Positions 23,651 to 54,428 of a stretch of 64,000 bases of DNA are shown here, one piece after another. Position numbers and translations under genes: made by a program. Below the pieces are notes generated by a model. That model saw only the letters and a list, made by a program, of their open reading frames with translations. It was not told the DNA's origin and ran no database searches. The first letter of the stretch is position 1. The number at the start of each line of letters is the position of its first letter. Source of the stretch: Candidatus Jordarchaeales archaeon. GTDB taxonomy: Archaea > Asgardarchaeota > Jordiarchaeia > Jordiarchaeales > Freyrarchaeaceae. Location of the stretch: assembly GCA_038889235.1 (NCBI GenBank), contig JAWAHN010000001.1, positions 248,001 through 312,000 on the forward strand. The letters are read 5' to 3'.

Positions 23651-26600
23651 TTAAGGTTCAGAGTTGGATGGTTGCTGCTGTTCTTCTCCTTCTTCCTCTC
23701 TTTCTTCCTTTTCCTTTCTTTCCTCTTCTTTTCTCGTTTCTTCTTTTTCGAGCTCGCTTAGTATTATGGTGCTTATGTCTGGTGGCACGCCTACGGAGGC
23801 GAGCAAGCGCTCCCTTTCTGCCGGCGGGTTAGCCTTCAGCTCCTTTAGGAGGGTGACCGCGACGTCCTCGCTCAGCCCTATCTCCGTTAGTAGTGGAAGA
23901 AGCTTGTCAAAAACTTCGGCTGGCACGTAGGCTTCAATTCTTGGCTCGACACCTACTATGGCAAGCTCCTCCATGAGGAGAGACTTTATCAGATCTATTC
24001 TCGTCAGCGGCTTCTTAATCTCGACCGGCTTACCCTTCTCTATAGCCTCAATTAGACTGTCAATCTTCCTTATGATGGGCGGCATTCTTAACCGTCTCAC
24101 GTAAACATAGCTTGCAAGGCTCGCGGGAGGCGAAATCACAGCTAAACTTAAGACGGCAAGTATTGTGAGGGGCACCCTAATGTTTAACCCAGGTATGGTG
24201 ACGCCGCGCTCTTTAACCGTCAACACCTGGAACGACTGAGCAGACTCGTAGTTTTCAGCAGAAGCGCTAATCACAAACGGGAGAGTAGACGGAGGAATAC
24301 CCGTCGGCACCACTAGCATGTACCGTCCGTCTCCGATGTGTGTTAGTGGTAAGCCGTTGGCTGTGACTGTGGCTCCAGGAACAGGGTTACCATAAGCATC
24401 CCTGTACTCAAAAACAAGAACAACAAAGGGAACACCATTCTCAACCTCACCATAACCTCCAAGCAGGACAAGGTAGGGGGTGAAGCCGCCCAAGACTGTG
24501 AAGCTTGCCGGCGTCACTGCGGCGGCTATCCTCTTTATCTCGAAGTTAACCTGCCTCGGCTCAGCCGAGTAGTTACCTTTATACGCATAGATTAAGGCGG
24601 TGTATTTGCCTGGAAGCATGTCCTGTGTGTCGACGCTGAGCACGTAAGTTCCGTTGCCTAACGATGTGAACTCGGCTACTAGAACCACCGAGCCATCCTT
24701 GAGCACGGTGCAGTTGACCACGGCATCCTCAACTGGAACATTGTTGTGAGCATCCCAGAGTGTGACTGTCAAGTTGAGAATCTCCTTCCAACGCGTCTCG
24801 GAAACATAAACCGACTTGGCGGCCATGGGGATTGGCTTAACGAAAAGCCACAACTTGTCCTCCACTAAAGAGTAGTTGGTAAGGAAAACTCTGAACCTCA
24901 CACTATAAGAGACATTCGACGGTAGAAGGGATGCGTCGAAGGATTCCGTGTAGTTTCCGTTGCCGTTATCAACCAACGAGCCAAAGAAGTCAGTGCCCTC
25001 AATCACGTAACTGACCTGGGCACCAGCTAATGGAGCTCCGGTTAGGCCGTCCCTGCAGTAAACGTAGAACACAAACTCATCGCCAAAGAACACATCGTAT
25101 GAAGGAGTGAAACTTAAATTAACCAACCTTGGCGAAATACTAACTAGTCTATCTTTAATATATGTAGTGTAGTTTGTGCATTCCACTCTAAAAGTCACAG
25201 TGTAATAGCCTGGGGGAAGAAGGTCTTTCGGTATGAAGCCCGTGTAGTTTCCGTCTTCGTTATCGGTTAGCTGGAAGCACCCAAACCCTCCAATAGACCA
25301 CGTTACATTCGCACCAATCACAGGGAACCCATTAGTATCATCGTAAACTTTAACCACCAACGGAATATCAGTATGATTCCAGTAGTAGAGTCCCAACAGA
25401 ACAGGTATTTTAACATTCGACTCGTTCAACTCAACAGGTTCTATTATAACGGTTGTGTGGTTCGTAGCAGTTTCAAGCCCAACTCCTCCAGCCATGAATT
25501 CAACGGTATATGTTTTTCCGCCGAAGAGAAGCCCGGTGAGGTCAGCCACGTAACAGAGCTCAGACTGCGTCAGATTTGTCCAGTCTAAGACCGCTTGCCC
25601 CGATGAAGAATCGACAACCCTATACTTGAAGTAGTAAGACGCGTTTGCAGAGCGATCGACAAAGGTTCCATCGCTGCTGTTCGTCCAGTTAGCTACGAGC
25701 AGGAGAGTGGAAGGCGTCCAAGCGCGCGTAATCAATGTGCCGTTCATGATAGGTATCTTCGTTATTGTGACTGTAGTATAATCGGTACAAACTAAAACGA
25801 CAGTAAGATTTGATGAAACCTCAACGGGGAGGTAGTCTGAACCGTTAACTTTTCTAAGCTGGCCATCCTCGTACAAGGAAATGTTGTATGAGTTTGGTGG
25901 CAGGCGGAAGTGTATACATCCCGTGGCGTTTGTTCTCCCTGATGAAACAAGACCAGACTCGTTCGTTATTGTAACGTTAATGTAGGGGAAGATGTTGCCG
26001 GATGGGTATATTACATGGCATATTAGGTTAACCACGTTCAATGTGACATCTAATAATAGGTGCTCTGCTAAATTAATTTGAGTAGTGGTGTTCTCATATG
26101 TTTGGTATGTTATTCCTTCATGTGTTTCATTCCAGACGACCCGGACATTGTAGCTGCCACCATAAAGGTAGAAGGAAGCGTGTCCGGTTCCGTTCGCCGT
26201 CTTGCTGAGAAGCAGCTCGCCACTACTAGCATCTCTCACTTCGACAAGAGCACCGCCCAAATCGTAGCCGTCCTTGTCTAAAGCGTGGACGGTTAAGTTG
26301 AAGAAGCGCTCCTCAGCACAACCGACGGACACAGACCTACTCTTCACCGCCTCAGCGAACACTTCAAACGGATCGGATCCCTGAGTTCCATTCCAAACAT
26401 AGAAAGCATAACATTCACGTATAAAATCTCCGAAATTAACGCTTAATCTAGTGGCGATAGGAGACCTATACCAGCTTTCTGAACTACTACTGTAACTCAC
26501 AGTAAAACTCCAAGATGCTAATGAAGGACTTGTGACGTTAAATTGCGGAGGCTCGACGTCCACTATGCCAGCAGCAACACCAGAGCTTTTATCCAACGTG

Positions 26601-27607
26601 CAGAACCAGTCCGCCGAACCCAACTGATAAACGCCCCCAATGCTCATTTCTTGCTCAGCACGGTTGCCACTCGTTTTGTATATCAGATTAGGCATAATTC
26701 TAGGGTCAAAAGAGTAACCACAACACCGATACGAAGAGATAGTAGAGGACCTTTGGAATACGGTTGTTGTTTCGCAAATCCAGCCCCACTCGAAGAACCT
26801 ATAGGTTATGTTGGCGTAAGTGTTATTCAACGTGTTACCGTAGATATCTTTAAACAGGACACTAGATGTAACGGTGACGAAGAGTGGGCCTGAACTATAA
26901 TTCAAAGAAAAACTAGAGGGGGAGCCGTTAGTATAGTAGGTTCGGCCGCCGCTTCTAAATGTCGGGTTGTTGTGGAATGGTGTTTGGCTCCAGTTGCTTT
27001 CGGAGATTGTGTTGTAGCATTCGAATATTTTTCCGCCATAGGCGGTTCTGTTAATGTACGCCGCGTAGTACTTTCCTGTCACTGTTATTATTTGGCCTTG
27101 GATTGTGGCGTTTACTTGTGGGGTGAATGATGGAGCTTCCATGTTAGTGTCACTGAAATATATGTAGTACGTAGTTGTTCCATAAGCTGTCACGTTGGCG
27201 TGGAATGTTATTGTTGCTTTGAGGATGTGTCCGGTTTCGTTGGCGGTTTCGTTCCAGACTTGGTATGGTAATCCGGGTTGGGGTAGCCATGAAAAGCCGT
27301 TCCAGAACTGGACTCTTAAGCTGCTGTTGTGACAACTTACGCCGAGTGCTTGGAAGTCTATGTAAACATCCACCGGGATGGTTGCGTTTGCACTGGAACC
27401 AACACTCACATTGACAGGTATTCTATATTTGAAAGTGGTGTCCCACCATGGAGGTGCGTCCTGTGGTGGTATAGAGTAGGTTTTTGGTTGGTTTTGTGCG
27501 GCTGTTGCCGTTGGTGAGGTTATTGATTGGTTTGGTAGAAGTAGGAGTGTTGAGAGTACGAGCGTGAGAATTATCGTTGTGGCTGCAATTTTGGTTTTTT
27601 TATCCAA
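23651..27607 (-). CDS. Giant cell-surface protein, DUF2341 plus Ig-like repeats
   Basis: A 1318-aa exported, membrane-anchored protein. An N-terminal signal (KIAATTIILTLVLSTLLLLP) is followed by a DUF2341-like domain (WWDTTFKYRIPVNVSV, residues about 52-165) with many N-x-S/T sites. A carboxypeptidase-regulatory-like beta domain (GGALVEVRDASSGELLLSKT) and at least four Ig-like/invasin-type repeats follow; FPVIGANVTWSI, APLAGAQVSYVI, VPVEDAVVNCTV and NPVPGATVTANG mark successive repeats. A single TM helix lies near residue 1165. The cytoplasmic tail ends in a Glu/Lys/Arg coiled coil. TTG 27607 follows GGAGGAGGGGGAAG. An S-layer-associated or adhesive role is inferred. Confidence 0.82.
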   Translation of the reverse strand: MDKKTKIAATTIILTLVLSTLLLLPNQSITSPTATAAQNQPKTYSIPPQDAPPWWDTTFKYRIPVNVSVGSSANATIPVDVYIDFQALGVSCHNSSLRVQFWNGFSWLPQPGLPYQVWNETANETGHILKATITFHANVTAYGTTTYYIYFSDTNMEAPSFTPQVNATIQGQIITVTGKYYAAYINRTAYGGKIFECYNTISESNWSQTPFHNNPTFRSGGRTYYTNGSPSSFSLNYSSGPLFVTVTSSVLFKDIYGNTLNNTYANITYRFFEWGWICETTTVFQRSSTISSYRCCGYSFDPRIMPNLIYKTSGNRAEQEMSIGGVYQLGSADWFCTLDKSSGVAAGIVDVEPPQFNVTSPSLASWSFTVSYSSSSESWYRSPIATRLSVNFGDFIRECYAFYVWNGTQGSDPFEVFAEAVKSRSVSVGCAEERFFNLTVHALDKDGYDLGGALVEVRDASSGELLLSKTANGTGHASFYLYGGSYNVRVVWNETHEGITYQTYENTTTQINLAEHLLLDVTLNVVNLICHVIYPSGNIFPYINVTITNESGLVSSGRTNATGCIHFRLPPNSYNISLYEDGQLRKVNGSDYLPVEVSSNLTVVLVCTDYTTVTITKIPIMNGTLITRAWTPSTLLLVANWTNSSDGTFVDRSANASYYFKYRVVDSSSGQAVLDWTNLTQSELCYVADLTGLLFGGKTYTVEFMAGGVGLETATNHTTVIIEPVELNESNVKIPVLLGLYYWNHTDIPLVVKVYDDTNGFPVIGANVTWSIGGFGCFQLTDNEDGNYTGFIPKDLLPPGYYTVTFRVECTNYTTYIKDRLVSISPRLVNLSFTPSYDVFFGDEFVFYVYCRDGLTGAPLAGAQVSYVIEGTDFFGSLVDNGNGNYTESFDASLLPSNVSYSVRFRVFLTNYSLVEDKLWLFVKPIPMAAKSVYVSETRWKEILNLTVTLWDAHNNVPVEDAVVNCTVLKDGSVVLVAEFTSLGNGTYVLSVDTQDMLPGKYTALIYAYKGNYSAEPRQVNFEIKRIAAAVTPASFTVLGGFTPYLVLLGGYGEVENGVPFVVLVFEYRDAYGNPVPGATVTANGLPLTHIGDGRYMLVVPTGIPPSTLPFVISASAENYESAQSFQVLTVKERGVTIPGLNIRVPLTILAVLSLAVISPPASLASYVYVRRLRMPPIIRKIDSLIEAIEKGKPVEIKKPLTRIDLIKSLLMEELAIVGVEPRIEAYVPAEVFDKLLPLLTEIGLSEDVAVTLLKELKANPPAERERLLASVGVPPDISTIILSELEKEETRKEEERKEKEEREEEGEEQQQPSNSEP

Positions 27608-29036: not shown

Positions 29037-31385
29037 CTATATCAGTCTAGCTTGCCTAACCGTCTTCTTTTTTAGGAGTGCTTCTTCTTTTACTCCGAAT
29101 TGTTCTAGAACCCTCATCGCTGCCGGTATCACCTGGTTTGTTATGTAGTATTCTGTGTCTACATGCTCTGGTTGAACGAGGCTGTAGGGGTATGCTCTCT
29201 CTGATATTTTCTCGCTTCCCTTGACTATTATGTAGCCTATTTTGCTTCCCGCCTCAAGCCTTCCTCCAGCTTTGATTAGTCTTAGTGCCGCTGTTATGTG
29301 GGGAGCCCTGACTTTGTACTCTTCAGGAGACTTGGTGAGGGTCTCCCAGATGACGAACTTTTCGAGGGGGACCTGTCCTGCGGTTACGGCTTCTATAACA
29401 CCCCTCACGTAGTTCACGGCTTCGTCGACGTTCTCGCTCCTGAGTACGATGTCTATGACCTTCTCTTGCACCTCCCTCGCTATCTCCGGCCAGTCTCCTC
29501 TCACCACTTCGAACCCTACGATGTCCAGTGTACCGTCGCTGAGTAGTCCGGCGTAGCGCTTCTTAGCCCCGGAGAAGAAGACTTTCGCGTAGATCTTGTC
29601 AGGCTTCATTTCAAGTCCTAGTACTGATTCGACTTCGCGACTGAACGCTTCAACTTTCTCCGGAATATTGTTTATGAACACGCTGTCGGTGTCGGCGTAG
29701 AGTACTGTTAACCCGTGCTTTTTGGCCAGCTCGATGGCCCTCTTTATGGTCTCCCTGCCCCACGCCGCTGTTGCTTCAGCCACCTCTCGCAGGTACCACT
29801 TCGCCCCGGTCCAGCCGCAGTAACCGTAAACGGCATTGGTCATCGTCTTCACAGCCCTTTGCCTCTCGTCGAGGAGTAGGTAGTCTGGGCTATCCGGGGG
29901 CAGTTTCTTCATCCGCTCCCTTATCTCCTTTCTCACCTTGAGGAGTTTTTCCAGAACCCTCTTGTAGAATCCGGGTGGATCTCTCCTGAACTTGTGGTTG
30001 ACCTCGGGCGCAACGTGGACTTCTTCTTCCGCCACTTTCTCATCTGGCGGGACATAGGTGTCTGGTGAAACATTGAACTTTATCATTATGTTGGGGTACA
30101 TTGACGCGAAGTCTAGGACGGCGACATCTCTGTATATGCCAGGCTTTGGTTCTAGGACGTAGCCTCCAACGTACGGCTGCCTGGCGCGCTCGCCTCTGGA
30201 CGGGACAAGTTCGCCCGAGGCGTGGGCTTCTCTCATCAACATGTTCTCAACTCTGAAGCCCACGCCGGCCCTCATTACCTGGTCTAGTGGCATCCCCGCA
30301 ACCTGGGACATTGAGATCGCTGCTGGGAGGAGCTTCTCTGCAATTCCACGTATGAGCTCTACGTCGTGGCGTGATGCTTCTAGGATCTTGCCCTTCAGTG
30401 ATGGGTCGTCCCAGTAGCGTGGGATCCGTGTGAAGTCGACGCTCACTCTTGGTGTTTTGGCTTCAACTTTGAGGTAGTCTGCTATGTTTCTCAATGTTTT
30501 CAGCTTCACTTCTGGCAGTATGGTGGCAACGTCGTAGAGGTCGACGTGCGCCCTTCCTACGATCGACACGTGTCCGTAGACGCTGACGTGAGGCTCTGAG
30601 CCATCTCTGTTTATCGTGAGCTTGACTCCGAGGTGTTTTGCTCTGCTGACGAGATATTGGAGGTCGAAGAAGTTAGAGTAGAAACCCACGATGACGTCAG
30701 GGTCGTAGTCTGAGACGTAGGAGACGAAGGATTTTATGGCTTCTTTGTCATCGTGTCCGTCGGCTTCGAACTGTCGGATCGCCCCATCACCTGTAACTGT
30801 CGATATCAGTATTACTGGGTCTGCTTCGGGGTTCATTGAGCCCGTGGGACTGTAAACGTCTATCTTGAAGCCGAGCATTTTGAGGCGTGGCGGGCGTTCT
30901 ACGACAGATGGCTTAGGGTGTTCTTCGGCAACGTAGGTCTTGTAGCGGTCCCCGCCTTCGGGGCGAACTTCAACTGTGTGCCAGCAGCATGGTGTGACTC
31001 CTACATAGTTGAGGTACTTCGTGTAAAACCTTATGTCCGCCTCAAAGCACCCCTCAACACCTGGGATCCTTTCAAACTTTTTGGCGTACTGGGAGGAGTA
31101 GTCTGGGTCCTCGAACGACACCATGAGGCACTTCACCGGCTTTCCCAGCAAGCGCCGCTCCACGACTTCAATCCCCGTTATCGGGGACGCGTCAGTAGAT
31201 GATGCTTTAACAGCCTTGATAAGGGATTCAAGTGGTGTGTCTGGCTTGGGAACTAGGTAGAGGTGGGGGGTGAACGTGTCGAAAACCAAAACTCGCTCGC
31301 CTTTGTCGTTAACTCCCCATAAAAGGACGCGTGGGTTCCTACCAGTCTTCTGTCCAACGTCGAGTATCCAAAACGAGAGTTTCAA
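29037..31385 (-). CDS. Family B DNA polymerase with degenerate exonuclease site
   Basis: A 782-aa replicative or repair-type family B polymerase. The polymerase motifs are intact: motif A LDFASMYPN (Asp 425), motif B KTMTNAVYG (Lys 513 to Gly 521) and motif C YADTDSVF (Asp 565 and 567). The 3'-5' exonuclease motifs are not. Exo I, normally F-D-I-E, reads FKID (Lys 174, Asp 176). Exo III, normally Y-x3-D, reads ASRHD (Ala 337, Asp 341). Exo II keeps its Asp (SNFFD). I prefer TTG 31385, 7 nt after GGAGGG, to TTG 31400. It resembles crenarchaeal PolB sequences around VYSPTGSMNPEADPVI. Confidence 0.9.
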   Translation of the reverse strand: MKLSFWILDVGQKTGRNPRVLLWGVNDKGERVLVFDTFTPHLYLVPKPDTPLESLIKAVKASSTDASPITGIEVVERRLLGKPVKCLMVSFEDPDYSSQYAKKFERIPGVEGCFEADIRFYTKYLNYVGVTPCCWHTVEVRPEGGDRYKTYVAEEHPKPSVVERPPRLKMLGFKIDVYSPTGSMNPEADPVILISTVTGDGAIRQFEADGHDDKEAIKSFVSYVSDYDPDVIVGFYSNFFDLQYLVSRAKHLGVKLTINRDGSEPHVSVYGHVSIVGRAHVDLYDVATILPEVKLKTLRNIADYLKVEAKTPRVSVDFTRIPRYWDDPSLKGKILEASRHDVELIRGIAEKLLPAAISMSQVAGMPLDQVMRAGVGFRVENMLMREAHASGELVPSRGERARQPYVGGYVLEPKPGIYRDVAVLDFASMYPNIMIKFNVSPDTYVPPDEKVAEEEVHVAPEVNHKFRRDPPGFYKRVLEKLLKVRKEIRERMKKLPPDSPDYLLLDERQRAVKTMTNAVYGYCGWTGAKWYLREVAEATAAWGRETIKRAIELAKKHGLTVLYADTDSVFINNIPEKVEAFSREVESVLGLEMKPDKIYAKVFFSGAKKRYAGLLSDGTLDIVGFEVVRGDWPEIAREVQEKVIDIVLRSENVDEAVNYVRGVIEAVTAGQVPLEKFVIWETLTKSPEEYKVRAPHITAALRLIKAGGRLEAGSKIGYIIVKGSEKISERAYPYSLVQPEHVDTEYYITNQVIPAAMRVLEQFGVKEEALLKKKTVRQARLI

Positions 31386-31490
31386 GCGTAAACCCTCCAA
31401 TCCTCTCCAAGAAAAGAAGTGGAACTGGGCTAGAAATAAATGTTGACGTTGAAACCCCCCGGGGCAGCAGTGTTCATGCCGAAGAGGGGT

Positions 31491-50712: not shown

Positions 50713-53088
50713 TTGGAAGGCAAGTGTAAGATAGGTGTTTTCGTGTGTCATTGCGGGCACAACATAGCTGGTGTGGTTGATGTTCAAGCAGTGGTAGATG
50801 AAATAAGGAAGCTCCCGGACGTTTACTGCGTAGATCACACTTACGTCTGCTCTAAGTCTGGTTTGAACCTGGTAAAGGAGAAGATAGCCGAGGAAGGGCT
50901 TAACAGGGTTGTGATAGCGGCGTGCACTCCCAAGTTACACGAGAAACTGTTTCAGAAAACGCTGGAAGAAGCTGGGCTTAACAAGTACTTGTTGTCACAG
51001 GCTAATATTAGGGAGCAGTGCTCGTGGGTTCACAAGGCGAGCCCGAGGAAGGCTACTTTGAAGGCAATAGATTTGACGAAGATGGCTATCGCGAAGGCTA
51101 GGCTTCTCCGAGAGCAGAACAAAATAGAGGTTCCAGTGGAAAGGGCGGTGCTCGTCGTAGGGGGAGGCATAGCTGGGATAACAGCGGCGCTGAACCTCGC
51201 CGACCTCGGTCACAAGGTTTACCTGGTCGAGAAGAAGCCGTCGATAGGCGGGCACATGGCGATGCTCGATAAGGTTTTCCCCACAAGGGATTGCTCGATA
51301 TGCATACTCGGCCCCCTCATGGTTGAGGTCAGCAGGCATCCGAACATAGAACTTATAACGTGCGCGGAGGTGACCCGGGTTTCTGGGTGGATAGGGAACT
51401 TCGAGGTTGAAATAACGAAGCACCCACGCTTTGTAAAGGAGGACGAGTGCACGGGTTGCGGTGTGTGCGCTGAGTTCTGCCCGGTAGAGGTCCCAAACGA
51501 GTTTGACCAGGGGCTTGGAGTTAGGAAGGCTATTTATCTCCCCTTCCCACAAGCGGTACCATTAGTTTACGTTATAGACCCGGAGCACTGTATAGGGTGT
51601 AGGGCGTGCGAGGCAGTTTGCGAGAGGGAGGCCATCGACTTTAACCAGAAGGAGGAGAAGATCAGGGTTAAGGTTGGTGCGATACTCATAGCTACAGGGT
51701 ACGACACGTTTAACCCCGCTGAGAAAAGAAACCTTGGCTACGGAATTTTCAAGAACGTTGTAACCTCGCTAGAGCTTGAAAGAATGCTTTCGCCGTCAGG
51801 GCCGACAATGGGAGAAGTGGTGAGACCCTCTGACGGTAGAGTTCCAAGACGCATTGTTTTCGTGCAGTGCGTTGGATCAAGGGATGAAAGCGTCGGTAGG
51901 ACTTATTGTTCGAGGGTTTGCTGCACTTACGCGGTTAAACAAGCGCTGGAGTTGAAGGAGCGCATACCCGGAGCTGAGGTTTACATTTTCTACCAGGATA
52001 TGAGGACTTTCGGTAAGGGGTTCGAGGAGCTTTACAGGGAGGCGTTGAGGGAGAGAATCAGGTTTGTCAGAGGGCTGGTGAGCAAGGTTGTTGAGGACGG
52101 GAAGACGGGGAACTTGATAGTTAGGGCTGAGGACACTCTTATGGGAGCCCCGGTCGAAGTGGAAGCCGACCTCGTAGTTTTATCTGTCGGCATGATCCCC
52201 TCCAAGGACACTGAAAGACTGCTTTTCGTTCTCAACGTCCCGGTTAGCGAGGATGGCTTTGTCATGGAGGCGCACCCCAAGCTCAGGCCAGTTGAGACAC
52301 AGGTTCCCGGGATATTCGTCGCTGGATGCGCTCAGGGGCCTAAGGATATACAGGATAGTGTTGCGCAGGCGAACGCGGCCGCATCCAAGATATCAGCCCT
52401 CCTATCTAAGGGTGTTGTGGAGCTTGAACCCTTCGTTCCGATGGTAAACTACGAGGTGTGTGTAAGGTGTGGCCTGTGTGTCGCGGCGTGTGACAGGGAC
52501 GTGTTGAAGCTTGATAAGGAGAAGGGTGTAGAGGTTAAGGGTGTGGGTTGTGTTGGCTGCGGGGCATGTGCTGGAGCATGTCCGACGGGAGCACTACAGA
52601 TAGCGCTGTTGAGCGACGAAATGATAAGGGCGCAGATAGACGCAGCCCTAGAAGAGAAGAAGGAGCACCCGTTAGTGATAGGCTTCCTCTGCAACTGGTG
52701 TGCTTATAGCGCGGCGGACACTGCTGGAGTCGCTAAGATACAGTATCCGACGAATATTAGAACGATATGGGTTCCGTGCGCTGGGAGAGTTAACCCCATC
52801 TTGATCCTCGAAGCGCTGGAGAAGGGAGCTGACGGTGTCCTAGTGCTTGGCTGCTATCCTCAGGACTGCCACTACCGGACGGGGTTTGATAAGGCTAAGA
52901 GGAGGGTCGAAGCGCTGAGGGAGCTGCTTAAAGCTGCAGGCATAGACCCTAGGAGGGTTAGGATAGAGAGCATGGCTGCGTCTGAGGGAAAGAAGTTCGC
53001 GACCGTCGTAAGAGAGTTCGTCGAGGAGCTGAAGAAGATGCCAGTTCTGGGGGAGGAGCTGGTTAGGGTTGCTGAGGTGAAGAGGTGA
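50713..53088 (+). CDS. hdrA: HdrA fused to an MvhD-like C-terminal domain
   Basis: A 791-aa flavin-bifurcating type HdrA. The N-terminal domain carries CHCGHN (12-17) and further Cys at 39, 46 and 71. The FAD loop VVGGGIAGITAAL is at 148-160, with GGHMAMLD at 179-186. Four 4Fe-4S motifs lie at 246-256 (CTGCGVCAEFC), 293-303, 583-593 and 613-623. Residues about 653-775 are an MvhD-like [2Fe-2S] domain (FLCNWCAYSA, VPCAGRV, LGCYPQDCHY), separate in many methanogens. It starts at TTG 50713. It is the first gene of the hdrA-polyferredoxin-hdrC-hdrB operon. Confidence 0.93.
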   Translation: MEGKCKIGVFVCHCGHNIAGVVDVQAVVDEIRKLPDVYCVDHTYVCSKSGLNLVKEKIAEEGLNRVVIAACTPKLHEKLFQKTLEEAGLNKYLLSQANIREQCSWVHKASPRKATLKAIDLTKMAIAKARLLREQNKIEVPVERAVLVVGGGIAGITAALNLADLGHKVYLVEKKPSIGGHMAMLDKVFPTRDCSICILGPLMVEVSRHPNIELITCAEVTRVSGWIGNFEVEITKHPRFVKEDECTGCGVCAEFCPVEVPNEFDQGLGVRKAIYLPFPQAVPLVYVIDPEHCIGCRACEAVCEREAIDFNQKEEKIRVKVGAILIATGYDTFNPAEKRNLGYGIFKNVVTSLELERMLSPSGPTMGEVVRPSDGRVPRRIVFVQCVGSRDESVGRTYCSRVCCTYAVKQALELKERIPGAEVYIFYQDMRTFGKGFEELYREALRERIRFVRGLVSKVVEDGKTGNLIVRAEDTLMGAPVEVEADLVVLSVGMIPSKDTERLLFVLNVPVSEDGFVMEAHPKLRPVETQVPGIFVAGCAQGPKDIQDSVAQANAAASKISALLSKGVVELEPFVPMVNYEVCVRCGLCVAACDRDVLKLDKEKGVEVKGVGCVGCGACAGACPTGALQIALLSDEMIRAQIDAALEEKKEHPLVIGFLCNWCAYSAADTAGVAKIQYPTNIRTIWVPCAGRVNPILILEALEKGADGVLVLGCYPQDCHYRTGFDKAKRRVEALRELLKAAGIDPRRVRIESMAASEGKKFATVVREFVEELKKMPVLGEELVRVAEVKR

Positions 53089-53093
53089 GAGAC

Positions 53094-54428
53094 ATGGCTG
53101 AACAGGTTGAAGTCAGGAAGGAGGCTGAGTTTGAAGAGGAAAGGATGCTCTTCAAGTGGTCGACCGAGAAACTTGAGAAGAAGCTGATCTATGACGCTGA
53201 AAGGTGTGTTGGGTGTGGTCTCTGCAAGGAGGTTTGCCCTTCAAATGCCATAGAGCTTGGACCGATTCCCGAGATAGCCATGGGGGAGGTTGAGGCGCCT
53301 AAGATAATGATAAATCAGGATGCGTGCAGCTACTGCGGGTTGTGCTCAGCGGTTTGCCCTGTTAAGGCTATAAGGTTCGAGATGAAGGGCAAATCCATCC
53401 TGGAAATGGAGGAGTACCCGAGGCTGATCAAAGAGGTCAAGGTGGATGAGGAGAAGTGTGCTCCCTGCCTCATATGCCAGTACACGTGTCCAAATGACGC
53501 CATAAAAGTGAACCTTTCCATCAAGAAGAAGGACAAGTTAGTTAGGTACAAGGAGAAGCCGCCGGGTAAGATTGAGGGAACTATAAGGATCGACAAGGAG
53601 AAGTGCGTGCTCTGCGGAAGGTGCGAGGTTCTCTGCAACGCCATAGAGATCAGCTGGAAGGACGTGAAGCCGAACGACCCGAGGCCAGGCTACGATATAA
53701 GGGTGGTGGAGGAGGAGTGCGATTACTGCGGACTATGCAAGGAAGTGTGCCCTTACGACGCGATAGAGGTCGAGTGTAAGACGAAAGTTGAGAGGGAGAT
53801 AGAAAAACCCGAAGTTTCAGGCAAGGTTGAAGTGAACCTCGACGACTGCATAACATGTGGCTGGTGTGCTAAATCTTGCCCGAAGAAAGCTATAACGGTG
53901 AACAAGGCGTTTGAGGGGGAGCTATCTATAACCGACATAGACAAGTGTGATCCAGTTGGGTGCAAGGCTTGCCTGAAAATATGCCCGGGGAACGTGTGGT
54001 TCGTCCCCGAGACGCTCGAGGAAAAGAAAAGGTTTCCTAAGATAGCGTTCGTGACGGATTACTGCGGCTTCTGCGGCGCCTGCCAGAACGCCTGCCCGGT
54101 TAAGATAATAAAGGTCAAGAGGACAAAGGTGAGATACACTAAGCCGAAGGGGATGGCTTGGTCTAACGCTTGGGAGAGAGCTTTCAAGAAGCTCATAGGG
54201 AAGGCAGGAGACCAGCCAAAGGCTAGGTTGCCGAGGATAGAAAGAGAGCCGGTGACCCCCATTGTTGAAGAGGAGGGAGTGATCCCGAAGCCAAGGCCAG
54301 ATTTAATGCAGCGGTTCATCGACGTCATGGAGAGGTTGAAAAGACTTCTCAGTGATAGGGGGGCGAGAGTTCTCTTAGAGAGGGGTAAAACGGAGAAGCT
54401 GTTGGAAAAGTTTAGGGAGGCGGTTTGA
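53094..54428 (+). CDS. Polyferredoxin with eight 4Fe-4S motifs
   Basis: A 444-aa soluble polyferredoxin. Eight cluster motifs can be read in order: CVGCGLCKEVCP, CSYCGLCSAVCP, CAPCLICQYTCP, CVLCGRCEVLCN, CDYCGLCKEVCP, CITCGWCAKSCP, CDPVGCKACLKICP (two extra residues before the second Cys) and CGFCGACQNACP. It would act as an electron wire to or from HdrABC, like MvhB or the FwdF-type polyferredoxins. ATG 53094 follows AGGTGAGAGAC, 5 nt after the hdrA stop. The C-terminal 90 residues are a basic helical tail without Cys. Confidence 0.9.
   Translation: MAEQVEVRKEAEFEEERMLFKWSTEKLEKKLIYDAERCVGCGLCKEVCPSNAIELGPIPEIAMGEVEAPKIMINQDACSYCGLCSAVCPVKAIRFEMKGKSILEMEEYPRLIKEVKVDEEKCAPCLICQYTCPNDAIKVNLSIKKKDKLVRYKEKPPGKIEGTIRIDKEKCVLCGRCEVLCNAIEISWKDVKPNDPRPGYDIRVVEEECDYCGLCKEVCPYDAIEVECKTKVEREIEKPEVSGKVEVNLDDCITCGWCAKSCPKKAITVNKAFEGELSITDIDKCDPVGCKACLKICPGNVWFVPETLEEKKRFPKIAFVTDYCGFCGACQNACPVKIIKVKRTKVRYTKPKGMAWSNAWERAFKKLIGKAGDQPKARLPRIEREPVTPIVEEEGVIPKPRPDLMQRFIDVMERLKRLLSDRGARVLLERGKTEKLLEKFREAV

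Follow-up and report, generated by a model that had tools for sequence, protein, structure and literature searches.

A PolB3-type DNA polymerase of the Asgard archaeal genus Jordarchaeum with a predicted inactive proofreading site

Family B DNA polymerases with an inactivated exonuclease are known from archaea (PolB2) and from eukaryotes (Pol alpha and Pol zeta). In the accessible literature, archaeal PolB2 forms the inactivated group and PolB3 the active one (PMC4104785, PMC7544198, PMC2527604). PolB2 is described as an archaeal extender of mismatches and lesions that lacks an exonuclease (PMC8764526), and Pol alpha and Pol zeta retain the exonuclease domain without its catalytic site (PMC2527604). 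The standard exonuclease-minus mutant of archaeal PolB, D141A/E143A, carries its substitutions at the matching exo I positions of the polymerase described here (PMC13136892). Within the openly accessible papers, no published report of an exonuclease-inactivated PolB3 was found.

We analysed a stretch of 64,000 nucleotides (the window) from a Candidatus Jordarchaeales genome of 2.14 Mb and 95% completeness. It encodes a family B polymerase of 787 aa when counted from the first TTG; a start five codons further in (gene end at 31385, as in the initial annotation) is equally possible. The coordinates of the gene, its motifs and related features are listed in Table 1. Pfam searches with the protein scored 227 bits for DNA_pol_B and 70 bits for DNA_pol_B_exo1. 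The best solved relative is Pyrobaculum calidifontis PolB (5mdn; E 1.4e-217), followed by PolBs of the Pfu/KOD type, and identities to PolB3s of the TACK archaea are mostly 40-51%. The corresponding locus in a sister genome, Candidatus Jordarchaeum sp. JNZ_1113, showed 85% identity. In the genome collection the class comprises eight species in two families, the second of which corresponds to Candidatus Freyarchaeota.

Table 1. Positions of the polymerase gene, its motifs and the DP1 genes (window positions unless a genome or locus is named)
Feature	Position	Strand	Basis
PolB3-type family B DNA polymerase gene, predicted exonuclease-dead	29037..31400	-	ORF, Pfam/NCBIfam, 5mdn match, tree
C-terminal tail RQARLI-stop, with truncated PCNA-interacting (PIP) motif	29037..29057	-	Alignments, downstream frame check
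Polymerase motif C, LYADTDSVF, intact (D570, D572)	29676..29702	-	Alignments
Polymerase motif B, KTMTNAVYGY, intact (K518)	29820..29849	-	Alignments
Polymerase motif A, LDFASMYPN, intact (D430)	30090..30116	-	Alignments
Exo III motif, ILEASRHDV: Y342A; Asp346 kept	30360..30386	-	Alignments
Exo II motif, VGFYSNFFD: Y240F, N241Y; Asp246 kept	30663..30689	-	Alignments
Exo I motif, LGFKIDVYS: catalytic Asp to Lys (K179), Glu to Asp (D181)	30849..30875	-	Alignments
Jordarchaeum and Freyarchaeota DP1 genes	L139-L147; query genome G000:C1:945132-946664		PGGHD motif, nine DP1s

A tree of the polymerase domain placed the protein within archaeal PolB3, inside the Asgard PolB3 clade (SH-aLRT 96-100), with PolB1 and PolB2 outside, and motifs A, B and C carry the catalytic Asp and Lys residues (D430, K518, D570 and D572). 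The protein also resembles the described PolB3 enzymes (5mdn, Pfu/KOD) in its full-length alignment and fold, but differs from them in replaced exo I, II and III residues and a truncated PIP motif. Both the active exonuclease set (DxE, Nx3FD and Yx3D; K/D, Y-D and A-D in the query) and the C-terminal PIP motif are usual in PolB3 without defining it. PolB2 (Dpo2) lacks the exonuclease, as is predicted for the query, but in addition exo III is missing from it, and its motif C is typically altered, with only one Asp; the intact YADTDS motif C, the presence of the exo III region and the tree position exclude the query from PolB2. The operon typical of PolB2 (inactivated RadA and arCOG07300) is absent around the gene. 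Pol zeta and Pol alpha, likewise B-family enzymes that keep an inactivated exonuclease domain as a structure (PMC7544198, PMC2527604), are not orthologous to it: they match far more weakly than archaeal PolB3, and the query has no zinc-binding C-terminal domain. A viral origin was rejected, a scan of viral contigs giving one remote match at 24%, and matches to plasmids were all below 60% identity, with eight listed at 23-27%.

The genes next to the polymerase encode an acetate-CoA ligase-like protein, a DUF362 protein and a methyltransferase; this gene order is conserved within the genus only, and the neighbours gave no link to repair. Also beside the polymerase (window 23651-27607) lies a gene for a 1318-aa protein, probably secreted or membrane-bound, with carboxypeptidase-regulatory-like and Ig-like repeats and 74% conservation in the sister species. 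Further along (window 50713-54428), an HdrA/MvhD-like fusion with a FlpD domain and many 4Fe-4S clusters is followed by a polyferredoxin, a pair of the electron-bifurcation type.

Alignment to 5mdn was gap-free around the motifs. It bore out the intact polymerase motifs that the initial annotation had reported, and showed K179 and D181 in place of the Asp and Glu of exo I and A342 in place of the Tyr of exo III, again as annotated, with D246 and D346 matching the two remaining Asps of exo II and exo III. The inventory of the exonuclease site was thus correct for exo I and exo III, but had missed the change in exo II (YN to FY). These replacements are common to all three PolB3-bearing Jordarchaeum species, the two others being 84-85% identical to the query; the exo III Tyr position is Ala in the query and Ser in one sister species. 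A site was called conserved if at least 93% of the intact PolB3s, leaving out the Jord/Frey/Baldr group, agreed on it. By this measure the exonuclease domain has 21 conserved sites, five of which are changed in all three Jordarchaeum sequences; of the 67 such sites in the polymerase domain, one is changed (Fisher p=0.0026). The five are exactly the active-site residues (179, 181, 240, 241 and 342). Since two further species share the changes and these sit at the most conserved active-site positions, chance or sequencing error is ruled out. From these residues we conclude, with good confidence, that the 3'-5' exonuclease of Jordarchaeum PolB3 is likely to give no useful proofreading, and the annotated combination of a non-proofreading polymerase with an active synthesis site holds as a prediction. 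The Tyr7-equivalent of the uracil pocket is Gln in Jord- and Freyarchaeota PolB3s alike.

An AlphaFold2 model of the query showed the usual fold (mean pLDDT 90.8), with 5mdn as the best PDB match (TM 0.87). K179 and D181 lie on strand 175-182, D246 in helix 242-257, and A342 and D346 in helix 333-368. Metal ligands at shifted positions, which the initial annotation had named as grounds against a dead site, are unlikely given this canonical predicted layout and an exo I without insertion or deletion. Among the three Jordarchaeum species, pairwise dN/dS was 0.03-0.10 for the exonuclease domain and 0.03-0.11 over all three domains. Many dS values are near saturation, so more weight goes to the dN ratios; the ratio of exonuclease to polymerase domain was 1.0-1.7 in Jordarchaeum pairs and 0.75-2.4 in the other PolB3 pairs compared. 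The protein is a maintained enzyme whose predicted-dead exonuclease domain is under purifying selection, and a pseudogene is rejected by the dN/dS values.

The C-terminal tail is altered as well. Baldr- and Sifarchaeota PolB3s keep the PIP motif (RQVSLFDF, KQASLDRFF) and, like most TACK PolB3s, run on into a QxxLxxFF-like PCNA-interacting sequence, whereas in Jord- and Freyarchaeota every PolB3 whose gene is intact at the 3' end terminates at RQ-x-[RK]-L-x (one reads KQAKLI). No continuation of the motif was found downstream of the query stop in any frame. The loss of the motif argues against high processivity, and the initial description of the enzyme as processive is unsupported.

Comparison across PolB3 showed how the exonuclease site changed. 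Scoring of 79 rows, PolB1 among them, gave 63 as intact, 3 as partial and 13 as dead. The sites are fully intact in Baldr- and Sifarchaeota; Freyarchaeota PolB3s have an intact exo I with Asn replaced by Asp in exo II, and two of them also have Glu for Asp in exo III. As the tail is lost in both Jord- and Freyarchaeota while exo I is intact in the latter, the PCNA tail was lost before exo I. Other dead PolB3s were found in Bathyarchaeota, a Brockarchaeota MAG, Methanodesulfokora, and one MAG each labelled Thaumarchaeota and Methanomethylicota. The exo-dead PolB3s of Bathyarchaeota, Brockarchaeota, Methanodesulfokora and the Thaumarchaeota MAG belong to the same subfamily and, like the query, have lost ligands and kept the polymerase motifs; their genomes all encode PolB1, and most encode PolD. 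They differ from the query in other exo I residues (e.g. S-I, H-V, A-L), and most retain a DFF-like C-terminal tail. A common origin was rejected, since the tree test excludes a single clade of all dead sequences (p-AU 0.00014), whereas one clade is compatible with the ten exo-dead sequences from TACK taken alone (p-AU 0.70). These clade tests imply at least three independent losses among the PolB3s surveyed, in the TACK group, the methanomethylicote and Jordarchaeum. Loss of the exonuclease site thus arose independently inside the Asgard archaea and is fixed across the genus Jordarchaeum, so that the initial framing of a crenarchaeal PolB with lost residues does not fit this Asgard PolB3.

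Two sequences in the comparison stood out for other reasons. The PolB3 from a genome of another Asgard family (L026, G159:C252) falls within the Freyarchaeota-type PolB3s, and the DP1 and PolB1 of that genome are likewise Freyarchaeota-like, pointing to misplacement, contamination or transfer. A PolB3 of Pyrodictiaceae (L093, 6001-9492) has a large in-frame insert that splits motif C between YGD and TDS, the pattern an intein would produce.

The initial annotation had suggested that another PolB or PolD may do the replication, and candidates for this are present: a PolB1 whose exo motifs are canonical (DIE; NGDNFD; YCWQD) and a PolD consisting of DP2, with the catalytic NCDGDED motif, and DP1. 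No Y-family polymerase (PF00817 IMS domain) was detected in four Jordarchaeum and four Freyarchaeota genomes, all of them incomplete MAGs. Among the other genomes with an exo-dead PolB3, 10 of 11 yielded a PolB1; of five genomes that combine an exo-intact PolB3 with PolD (L090, L091, L096, L102, L104; from Methanobacteriota, DPANN and, in one case by label, Thermoproteota), none did. DP2 occurred in 7 of 11 exo-dead and 7 of 39 other genomes (Fisher p=0.006), a difference confounded by phylogeny and MAG incompleteness. PolD as the sole cause of exonuclease loss was rejected in view of this phylogenetic confounding, and euryarchaeal and DPANN PolB3s keep the exonuclease alongside PolD. The distribution agrees with, but does not prove, a pattern in which PolB3 sheds proofreading only in the presence of other replicative polymerases.

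The query genome holds a third family B piece (L003, G000:C3:463332-464261), a C-terminal palm/thumb half of ~340 aa with intact motifs B and C that is closest to PolB3 (31%) and has an XPF/Hef-like nuclease ORF immediately after it; it is a truncated gene or an assembly artefact. A Baldrarchaeota PolB1 (G011:C17:180297-184163) seems to carry an in-frame insert of ~440 aa near residue 636, by motif C, which is probably an intein.

The proofreading subunit of PolD is altered too. N450 of P. abyssi DP1 is a metal-coordinating residue of the PolD exonuclease (PMC10721889). The DP1s of Jordarchaeum (four of four) and of the Freyarchaeota type (five of five) read PGGHD instead of PGNHD (N450G) and keep the essential catalytic His451, whereas Sifarchaeota, Bathyarchaeota and other DP1s retain Asn at 450. 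This substitution suggests that proofreading by PolD is weakened throughout the class. Together with the exonuclease loss in PolB3, it leaves PolB1 as the only polymerase found in the genome whose proofreading site is fully canonical. Inactivated DP1s have already been described for some archaeal lineages (PMC7544198). DP1s of the Baldrarchaeota type (G009, G010, G011; L159-L161) were strongly altered at motif III (PGEND, PGDAD, PGDSD) and elsewhere, and DP2 was not found in these three genomes, which seem to have lost PolD and kept a modified DP1.

We consider it probable that PolB3 acts in Jordarchaeum as a non-proofreading specialist in mismatch or lesion extension or in gap filling, with PolB1 and/or PolD as the replicases. 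With two metal ligands gone and a Lys in the metal site, the enzyme would be unable to proofread. Replication by PolB1 and PolD would free it for tasks where proofreading hinders, the most likely being lesion or mismatch extension in the manner of Pol zeta or archaeal PolB2, or the filling of short gaps. The extender role is proposed by analogy and from the lack of a detected Y-family polymerase in the lineage. A more far-reaching version, which we put forward tentatively, holds that proofreading has been lost wholly in PolB3 and partly in PolD (through DP1 N450G), that PolB1 would be the sole full proofreader, and that PolB3 would serve as a Pol zeta-like extender in a lineage that lacks Y-family polymerases.

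A less likely reading, though one with some weight, keeps PolB3 as a replicative enzyme, for example in lagging-strand synthesis or Okazaki maturation, with PolB1, PolD or mismatch repair correcting its errors in trans in the way known for Pol alpha. In Thermococcus, PolB has been mapped to the lagging strand, and an exonuclease-minus PolB is tolerated there (PMC13136892), Pol alpha is itself an exonuclease-inactivated primer extender (PMC7544198), and the strong purifying selection on PolB3 is consistent with such a role; however, the missing PCNA-binding tail is unexpected for a fork enzyme, and with a metal ligand absent from the PolD proofreading subunit, correction in trans would fall mainly on PolB1. 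It is improbable that the exonuclease still works. Two of four carboxylates (Asp246 and Asp346) are intact and the change of Glu to Asp181 is conservative, so that weak binding of one metal by Asp181 and slight residual activity are conceivable; yet a Lys occupies the key exo I Asp position, the Asn of exo II and the Tyr of exo III are lost, this state is fixed in three species, and the absence of insertions or deletions leaves no room for shifted ligands. A protein that is non-functional or degenerating as a whole, be it a pseudogene or a purely structural relic, could account for the stepwise erosion along the Jord/Freyarchaeota lineage but is highly improbable given intact polymerase motifs, almost unchanged conserved polymerase sites and low dN/dS in every domain.

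Read as the loss of proofreading in a specialist PolB3, these data add to the known inactivated family B enzymes a repeated natural loss within PolB3. The intermediate kept in the sister group and the earlier loss of the PCNA tail would provide a testable series from replicative polymerase to specialist, and this series lies in the phylum nearest to eukaryotes. PolB3 and the altered DP1 together predict that PolB1 is the main high-fidelity polymerase of the lineage. If the proposed division of labour is true, it would be a convergent, stepwise parallel to the eukaryotic split between proofreading and non-proofreading family B polymerases.
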